NCBI RefSeq assembly: GCF_029223525.1
Contig: NZ_JARHTQ010000007.1
Span: forward strand, 62,001-126,000
Length of the DNA stretch: 64,000 bases
DNA from: Streptantibioticus ferralitis
GTDB taxonomy: Bacteria; Actinomycetota; Actinomycetes; Streptomycetales; Streptomycetaceae
Direction: 5' to 3'
Made by a program: the position numbers and the translations under genes. Position 1 is the first letter of the stretch, and each line of letters opens with the position of its first letter. The notes beneath the pieces are model-generated. The model made no database searches and was not told the DNA's origin. It worked only from the letters and a program-made list of their open reading frames with translations. Positions 41,089 through 44,514 of this stretch are shown here, piece after piece.

Positions 41089-41646
41089 GTGCGCAAAATC
41101 CTCCACCTGGCCATTGCCTTCGCCGCGTTCCTGGTGGCGAGTGTCGGCCTGGTCCTACCGGCAGTCGCCGCGGGTGACTACGGCGAGAAGTACTTCGAGA
41201 TCGGCGATCAGTTCTTCCAAGCCACCGACTCCAACGGGCACTTCACCGCACAGGTCAGCTACGTGAGCGGCGGGCGACCGTTCCGTGAGAACCCGGTCGC
41301 GTTCTCGTTCGTCATCAGCCCGTACCTGAGGTCGATCGCCACCGGCACGATGCAGTGCAGAGCGTGGCAGTCCAAGAACGGCGCACTCACCGGCGCGAGT
41401 GACTACCACTCGATCCCGCCGGGTTACCTATGGCACTGGACGTTCCCGGAGAACCCGATGGGACCGCATATGCAGGCCAGCGGGAGCTGCGTCTTCCCGG
41501 TCAACGCCGATGGTCGTACCGGCATCGCCAACGTCCGGTTCGTCTTCCGTTACGTCGTCGACAACGGGGGTGGCGACGCGGTGTCGCACCGGCACGCTGT
41601 GTCGGCCGGCGCCTCCGCACTGGTCAGCAGCGCTTCGATCCGATAG
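41089..41646 (+). CDS. Secreted protein of unknown function
   Basis: 185 residues. The signal peptide (RKILHLAIAFAAFLVASVGLVLPAVAA) is cut near residue 28. The mature chain is beta-rich with two Cys (MQCRAWQ, GSCVFPV) and repeated aromatic residues; nothing recognisable. GTG at 41089 follows GGGGTAAGGGGGG. The neighbour downstream begins 16 nt later and may be cotranscribed. Confidence 0.75.
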   Translation: MRKILHLAIAFAAFLVASVGLVLPAVAAGDYGEKYFEIGDQFFQATDSNGHFTAQVSYVSGGRPFRENPVAFSFVISPYLRSIATGTMQCRAWQSKNGALTGASDYHSIPPGYLWHWTFPENPMGPHMQASGSCVFPVNADGRTGIANVRFVFRYVVDNGGGDAVSHRHAVSAGASALVSSASIR

Positions 41647-43188: not shown

Positions 43189-44514
43189 TCACCGCAGGGT
43201 GCCCGCGGCGATGGTGATGATGGCGCGGAGTTGGCTGAGGATGGCCATCCGGTTGTGTTCGAAGGCTGGATCGGTGATCGCACCGGTGTTGCCTGCCCCG
43301 AACTCCAGAACCGGGGTGTGGACATGGCCGCCCGGAACGTGGAGTGCCGCCGCGTCCCTGAGCCGGGTCGCGCGGTAGGCGATCTCGTTGGACAGGTAGT
43401 CACCTCCGCCGCCCGCTCGCGCGGTAGAGCCCGGCGTGGGTCCGTCGGGCCGGGTCACCGGTGTGCTCTGACCAGCCGGGAGTTCGGTGACCTCGGTGTG
43501 GTCGTACACCGGGAAGGGGCCGGTGTACGCCTGGACGATCCGCTGGTACGGCAGCGTGGTGACCGTCCACTGCGGCTGCTGGCGATGGCCGGGCACCCAG
43601 ACGGGCAGCGGGATCGTGCCCGTACGGGACAGGTTGTCGTTGTCGGGGAAGCCGCCGCGCCAGGCACCGTTCCACCGTTCCACGTCGAAGCGGCCGACCC
43701 GGCCCTGGCTGACGGTGACGAACATGTCGACCCGCCGCGGGCCGGGGGTGAAGTAGGGGAACAGCGTCCGTTCGACCGTACCGTCGGCGAAGTCATCCCA
43801 GCGGACCGGGAAGATGACGGTCTCGATCCGCACCGGACCGGCCGCGGTCCGCAGGGTCGTCCCGTCCAGCGCCAGCGCGTTGGCGCCCGAAGGGTTGCCG
43901 ATGCGGATGTCGGTGTCCAGGGTGAACGGATCGAAGCCGGTGACGATGACGCGCTTGACGCGGCTGCCCGCGGGCAGGTCGACCGAGTCCTCGCCGCGCG
44001 ACGACCGTTCCAACCGCCCGAGCAAAGCAGCCCGTTCGCGCTCGCCGAGCGGGAATCGCGGCTGCCACTGGCGCAGCGCCCGTGTCATGCCGAGTCGTGC
44101 CCAGTACAGCGGCCGGTCGTCGGACCTGTCGAGCCCTGCCTGCTGCCCGCCGTCCGCGGCGGACGGCCCACGGCCGTCGGCATGCTCTTCCGCCGGGCCG
44201 CGTCCCTGCGCCCGGTCGACCGCGGCCCGCCACAGCTGCCGGCCGCTCTCGGTGACGACGCGCCGGGCCCGCGCCGCAGTGTGGGCCGCGCACAACTCCC
44301 GTACGAACGCGGGGGCCTTGGCGCCGAAGCCACTACGGTGCAGTATCTCCTGAGGCACGGGCTTGGCCAGGCGCTGTTCCTCGACGGTGAGCGGAGCCGA
44401 GGTGTTCACGCAGGCCGGGGCCGCGTGCGCGGCCGGGGCGCCGAGCACGGCGACGGGGGCGACCAGCGCCGCGGTGGCGAGCAGCGTGCCCGTGCGGGTT
44501 CTCAACCGATTCAT
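43189..44514 (-). CDS. Secreted pyroglutamyl-peptidase-like (C15) protein
   Basis: 441 residues. A signal peptide (NRLRTRTGTLLATAALVAPVAVLGAPAAHA) directs export. After a long N-terminal region (to ~165) the C15 fold begins: VIVTGFDPF (residue ~175), GNPSGANALALDG, PVRWDD, then GGGGDYLSNEIAYR and GHVHTPV. In cytoplasmic pyroglutamyl peptidase the second site is (T/S)YVCN with the catalytic Cys; here the aligned residue is Ser (YLSN). His is kept. So it is a Ser variant or an inactive relative. Export is also unusual for the family. GGAGGGG precedes the ATG at 44514. Confidence 0.82.
   Translation of the reverse strand: MNRLRTRTGTLLATAALVAPVAVLGAPAAHAAPACVNTSAPLTVEEQRLAKPVPQEILHRSGFGAKAPAFVRELCAAHTAARARRVVTESGRQLWRAAVDRAQGRGPAEEHADGRGPSAADGGQQAGLDRSDDRPLYWARLGMTRALRQWQPRFPLGERERAALLGRLERSSRGEDSVDLPAGSRVKRVIVTGFDPFTLDTDIRIGNPSGANALALDGTTLRTAAGPVRIETVIFPVRWDDFADGTVERTLFPYFTPGPRRVDMFVTVSQGRVGRFDVERWNGAWRGGFPDNDNLSRTGTIPLPVWVPGHRQQPQWTVTTLPYQRIVQAYTGPFPVYDHTEVTELPAGQSTPVTRPDGPTPGSTARAGGGGDYLSNEIAYRATRLRDAAALHVPGGHVHTPVLEFGAGNTGAITDPAFEHNRMAILSQLRAIITIAAGTLR

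Follow-up and report, generated by a model that had tools for sequence, protein, structure and literature searches.

In some peptidase clans, such as PA, serine and cysteine nucleophiles alternate on one fold. Clan CF, in contrast, is described as holding only the cysteine peptidase family C15 (pyroglutamyl peptidase I, PF01470), with a Glu-Cys-His triad (PMC12445089), and Glu, Cys and His are also the residues given for an Aspergillus C15 enzyme (PMC7804941). Here, we analyzed a gene in a 64,000-nucleotide stretch of Streptantibioticus ferralitis DNA (assembly GCF_029223525.1, contig NZ_JARHTQ010000007.1, positions 62,001 to 126,000 of the forward strand; referred to as the window), whose product has Ser375 at the position of the catalytic Cys of C15:

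43189..44514, reverse strand: whole gene (open reading frame of 441 aa plus stop, ATG start) for a C15-fold protein that is predicted to be exported and has Ser where the catalytic Cys is expected

We consider it likely, at a probability of roughly 0.66, that this protein is an exported hydrolase of the C15 (clan CF) fold, in which Ser375 would take the place of Cys as nucleophile, activated by His399 and Glu279, and of which a helical N-terminal domain would be an integral part.

Among the open-licence papers searched, no title, beginning of an abstract or consulted passage described a Ser-type C15 protein or a Cys-to-Ser swap in this family. Pyroglutamyl-peptidase domains were mentioned for polymorphic toxins and PVC systems in one clause that names no residues in the accessible text (Zhang et al., 2012; PMC3482391), and a Shewanella paper of 2012 reported a 'peptidase C15' orf adjoining blaOXA-48-like genes, the available part of which does not discuss the active site (PMC3480492). 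The fold, the family name and the link to toxins are already known; the novelty lies in the Ser branch, including its domain and its conservation.

Homology to C15 peptidases and predicted fold

Peptidase_C15 (PF01470) was the sole Pfam match of the window protein, with 21.5 bits just below the cut-off of 22.7. At E<=1 this family was matched by all 11 members of our first alignment, and its gathering score of 22.7 was passed by two of the five relatives scored (P0004 from plasmid pOXA436, 33.7; P0002, 23.4); a Tenacibaculum relative stayed under the cut-off with 16.5 bits. A hidden Markov model (HMM) search of the PDB reported 19 sequences, of which the 18 best were pyroglutamyl or pyrrolidone-carboxyl peptidases, and Ser and His were paired as in the profile alignment described below.

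A model of the window protein built from a 38-row alignment (A4) reached a mean predicted local distance difference test score (pLDDT) of 87.8 and supersedes an earlier AlphaFold run (11 rows, pLDDT 67.4), for which the best Foldseek match was C15 (E 8.7e-4). When the 38-row model was compared with the PDB by Foldseek, 16 matches were obtained at E<=0.001 and all 16 were C15. With VIA-align, the top 23 solved entries were all C15 (Z 20.0-23.5; root-mean-square deviation 2.5-3.4 over 186-206 residues, model residues about 181-441), and the first non-C15 rows, purine nucleoside phosphorylases and related nucleosidases, had Z scores of at most 11.5. Helical residues about 40-175 lie outside the region covered by the C15 matches of both programs. 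The window protein is a C15 homolog, as the original prediction had proposed, and has the C15 fold in the model; the profile alignment, the HMM search and the predicted structure agree on this relationship.

43192..43959, reverse strand: C15-fold catalytic domain, residues 186-441 (VIA-align and hhalign)

The protein thus resembles family C15 in its predicted fold (Z up to 23.5) and, in the profile alignment, in the equivalents of the catalytic Glu and His, the GFDPF and NPS motifs and the DN and LP positions. It differs by Ser for Cys, by HxH for a single His, and by a helical N-terminal domain of about 140 residues together with probable export. Since the catalytic Cys nucleophile is missing while the predicted fold and the equivalents of the catalytic His and Glu are present, the protein should not be classed among the cysteine peptidases, even though the scaffold is shared.

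Serine at the position of the catalytic cysteine

A profile-profile alignment (hhalign) of the Ser family with six canonical C15 sequences (A3) gave a probability of 96.7 and an E-value of 3.1e-10. It pairs YLSN with the catalytic-Cys motif, HVHTP with FVHIP, and DVER with TVER of C15. The site of the window protein reads GGGGDYLSNE, where the canonical C15 of the same genome has TAGTFVCNH. The following residues are concerned:

43390..43392, reverse strand: Ser375 (codon TCC), at the C15 catalytic-Cys position (hhalign; Ser in 139/139 loci; TCN in 132/132 distinct instances)
43678..43680, reverse strand: Glu279, equivalent of the C15 catalytic Glu (hhalign; Glu at 137 and Asp at 2 of the 139 loci)
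43318..43320, reverse strand: His399, equivalent of the C15 catalytic His (hhalign; 139/139 loci)
43324..43326, reverse strand: His397, an extra invariant His two residues before His399 (139/139 loci; Phe in the canonical C15 of the host)

The counts out of 139 come from a set of 149 loci, of which 139 had a tblastn match, and all 139 carry Ser375, His397 and His399. The ten unmatched loci are those of canonical C15 genes; among the matched ones, 16 repeat an already counted stretch, which leaves 123 distinct ones. The same three residues are invariant in A4 and in a second alignment (A2) that reaches down to 28% identity and comprises Actinomycetota, Pseudomonadota and Bacteroidota, with members from Burkholderia, a comamonad, an Enterobacter plasmid and Tenacibaculum; in the last of these, Glu279 is replaced by Asp. 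In addition, we counted the residue at the free position between L.NE..YR and GH.H, both of which were required, with repeats removed. The 156 loci yielded 132 distinct instances, next to 21 repeats and three loci without the motif (L156/L167, which are one locus, and L166). Ser was found in 132/132, always encoded by a TCN codon, which fits a single old change with no later switch. The separately fetched outliers, apart from the three just named, have YLSNE or FLSNE.

An alignment slip or a Ser present by chance, the former being one way in which the original prediction could have failed, is ruled out by hhalign, by the Ser in 139/139 loci and by the 132/132 distinct instances; the HMM search of the PDB (18/19) agrees with this. 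Nor was a relocated Cys found, which had been the other reservation: the aligned stretch is free of Cys in 21 of the 38 A4 rows, and the catalytic half in 34 of 38, counts in which some rows miss part of the signal peptide. With 21 of 38 members devoid of Cys in this stretch, a displaced Cys cannot do the work, and this candidate was rejected. The assignment of Ser to the catalytic-Cys position within YLSN was therefore confirmed.

In the model, Ser375 starts a helix (374-388), Glu279 ends a short strand and His399 lies within strand 395-400, a predicted layout that matches what is expected for C15. Four further positions concern the substrate pocket. F194 and N207 are invariant in A4, F197 is F or Y, and Q270 is Q with one Met. 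We take F194, F197, N207 and Q270 to correspond to Phe10, Phe13, Asn19 and, presumably in this numbering, Gln71 of the Bacillus enzyme, which have roles in binding pyroglutamate.

N-terminal domain and probable export

The long N-terminal extension noted in the original prediction is real, and it turned out to be a conserved helical domain. Helices are predicted at residues 44-48, 52-61, 66-75, 80-102, 134-149 and 158-172. Residues invariant in A2 form the motif DDRxLYWxR in this domain and GFD, NPSG, YLSNE and GHxH in the catalytic domain. The N-terminal domain thus travels with the catalytic domain and is more than a mere extension.

43990..44397, reverse strand: conserved N-terminal helical domain, about residues 40-175 (model helices and 11 residues invariant across A2)
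44095..44121, reverse strand: family signature DDRPLYWAR, residues 132-140 (DDRxLYWxR invariant in the three-phylum alignment A2)
44422..44514, reverse strand: probable signal peptide, residues 1-31, with cleavage after AHA (by eye from the sequence; low model pLDDT at residues 1-30)

The signal peptide, which had also been proposed before, is plausible as a Sec-type sequence read by eye (MNRLRTRTGTLLATAALVAPVAVLGAPAAHA, followed by AP at the presumed cleavage site), and such signal sequences point to export. The targets would then be expected outside the cytoplasm, as extracellular peptides or cell-envelope material.

Possible mechanism and alternative explanations

If Ser375 is the catalytic nucleophile, the most likely chemistry would be hydrolysis, by way of an acyl-enzyme, of an amide or ester bond located at a small ring or an N-blocked end, because the equivalents of the Bacillus pocket are largely kept. 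The substrate may accordingly contain a pyroglutamyl-like or another small ring. His397, which is absent from the C15 of the host, may assist the Ser nucleophile.

Several observations weigh against such an enzyme. The 38-row alignment behind the good model consists of actinobacterial sequences only, and the Burkholderia and comamonad members have no PF01470 match at E<=1, so that their membership rests on similarity to other members. The four best PDB alignments shown in the HMM search are to C15 chains of P. furiosus that have a YLSN site themselves and are engineered; the title of one P. furiosus entry, 1ioi, speaks of a Cys-free form. In canonical C15 enzymes the Cys-to-Ser change abolishes activity. 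Taken together with the engineered chains, this means that activity requires more than a Ser at this site. Individual copies are also irregular: L166 is a fragment with YLPNE, the locus of L156/L167 has TSPTR in the frame that was aligned, although another frame matches at the same place, the matches in genomes G537 and G695 are split over two frames, and L014/L154 contain an internal TGA.

The resemblance to engineered mutants such as 1ioi would suit a pseudoenzyme, in which the Cys-to-Ser change abolished catalysis and left an extracellular binder of pyroglutamyl or other ligands, with Ser375, His399 and Glu279 kept for binding; the largely conserved pocket fits this as well. Pseudoenzymes, however, often lose their acid-base partner residues. 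Here His399 and Glu279, whose roles would be in acid-base chemistry rather than in binding, are invariant or conservatively exchanged (E to D) over three phyla, and a further His (397) is fixed, so that we regard a pure binder as unlikely. The original prediction had left the choice between a Ser-dependent and a non-enzymatic relative. This proposal was supported, and the conservation of Ser, of both His and of Glu (Asp in Tenacibaculum) favors the Ser-dependent side; a swap kept across three phyla suggests a functional serine enzyme rather than a copy in decay.

The fixed His397, which is Phe in the canonical C15 of the host, might alternatively belong to a different catalytic set, with His397-x-His399 and Glu279 forming a metal site or with a Ser-His-His arrangement, and Ser375 would then perhaps be no plain C15-like nucleophile. 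Residues i and i+2 of strand 395-400 of the model should face one side. Ser375 is, however, as invariant as both His residues, and we know of no metal use among C15 relatives; this arrangement appears very unlikely to us. We judge it equally improbable that the protein is a pyroglutamyl peptidase of the usual kind, which would simply work with Ser and fill the housekeeping role of the Cys enzyme, although two plasmid-borne members are annotated as 'pyroglutamyl peptidase' and the pocket equivalents are kept. The genome of the window contains one separate canonical C15 of the Cys type with the motif TFVCN (G000:C77:36301-36894, L015), and a high-scoring C15 separate from the Ser protein was found in 3/3 searched genomes of the genus, the motif having been read in the host only. 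The Ser and Cys proteins are thus not substitutes for each other there, and the Ser protein additionally carries its conserved domain and probably a signal for export. In the genus Streptomyces, a canonical C15 was detected at E<=1e-40 in 16 of 101 genomes, compared to 190 of 295 for the Ser family.

Should Ser375 indeed be catalytic in an exported hydrolase, one fold would support both Cys and Ser nucleophiles, and the other changes required could be tested directly. The invariant His397 and the N-terminal domain would then be candidates for the changes that let a Cys peptidase run on Ser. A Ser nucleophile is not oxidized as Cys is, which would fit an enzyme outside the cell. This would give a testable function to a gene found in 190 of 295 sampled Streptomyces-genus genomes; the labels 'pyroglutamyl peptidase' and 'peptidase C15' on genes of the Ser family are unproven.

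Distribution of the Ser family

Among the sampled genomes of the genus Streptomyces, about two thirds (190/295) matched the Ser family; loci were taken from the best 30 of these, and nine outliers were fetched in addition, the site residue being unread in most of the others. The family was also found in 14 of 100 relatives of the window's genome and in 8 of 396 genomes from across the phylum, the window's own genome being counted in both. Two other genomes of the window's genus encode orthologs with 85-86% identity to the window protein. Three findings go beyond the original prediction: the conserved domain formed by the extension, the wide distribution of the family and the type VI cluster around one relative.

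In a scan of 80 loci (L016-L095), YLSNE was one of two seed patterns, so this set is biased to Ser; the searches of 295, 100 and 396 genomes, the plasmid search and the fetching of outliers are free of this bias. At these 80 loci, the commonest other gene cluster, presumably a 'membrane protein, EI24-like' as judged by eye, occurred in 51 and was scored downstream on the opposite strand in 48. The most frequent neighbor therefore shares no operon with the Ser-family gene and was rejected as an operon partner. The arrangement suggests a stable chromosomal position in Streptomyces, which differs from that in the window.

A phage or viral origin was also rejected: phage records gave no Ser-family match at E<=0.01, none of 22 pattern matches in viral contigs was confirmed as Ser family, and no fold match to the model was found in BFVD at E<=0.001.

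Plasmid-borne relatives

The search of plasmid proteins returned eight records, from Streptomyces, Kitasatospora, Tsukamurella, Burkholderia, a comamonad, Enterobacter and two from Tenacibaculum. YLSNE is present in 7/7 translated members, and the eighth record (L137) is a split copy.

On a plasmid of Tenacibaculum finnmarkense (CP116296.1), a protein of 594 residues (L136:3134-4918) contains the Ser-C15 unit as its C-terminal part. Its gene begins 2 bases after a baseplate V (VgrG-like) gene, and annotated tssF, tssN, tssO, tssR and tssD belong to the same cluster. It is overlapped by an open reading frame of 186 residues (L136:4884-5444) with a hydrophobic N-terminal stretch; judged by eye, its product looks exported and would suit a candidate immunity protein outside the cytoplasm. 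As far as the genes go, this arrangement is that of a type VI secretion system effector, directly behind vgrG and followed by a candidate immunity gene. The position behind a VgrG-like gene is also reminiscent of the polymorphic toxins of Zhang et al. (2012), for which the accessible text does not state whether Cys or Ser is present (PMC3482391). It is tempting to speculate that a serine-type branch of clan CF exists in at least three phyla, with Ser-His-Glu hydrolases that act outside the cytoplasm of the producer on peptides of the cell envelope or some other extracellular target, one of them being the warhead of a type VI effector; we put this forward as a tentative proposal. In a second T. 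finnmarkense strain (CP116298.1, L137), the effector gene is split over several annotated open reading frames, and this copy looks broken.

On pOXA436 of Enterobacter asburiae, the gene for P0004 (L135:3731-4888), with YLSNE and HIH, is located between blaOXA-436 and sprT, and it may be a passenger of resistance-gene transfer. No match to it was found in the E. coli genome set (ecoli_genomes). The gene order resembles that of the 'peptidase C15' orf of Shewanella in the available part of the 2012 paper, a match by name and order only and not by sequence (PMC3480492).

Genomic context in the window

A GGAGG sequence lies 7 bases upstream of the ATG of the Ser-family gene. Unlike the polymorphic toxins in the accessible text of PMC3482391, the window protein probably carries a signal peptide of its own, and a secretion-system gene was not found among the window neighbors looked at; the neighbors tested include an HD-domain gene and a PolX-type gene. 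Elsewhere in the window, at 41089-41646 on the forward strand, a 185 aa protein with no Pfam match at E<=0.01 is encoded, which, as judged by eye, has a probable signal peptide.
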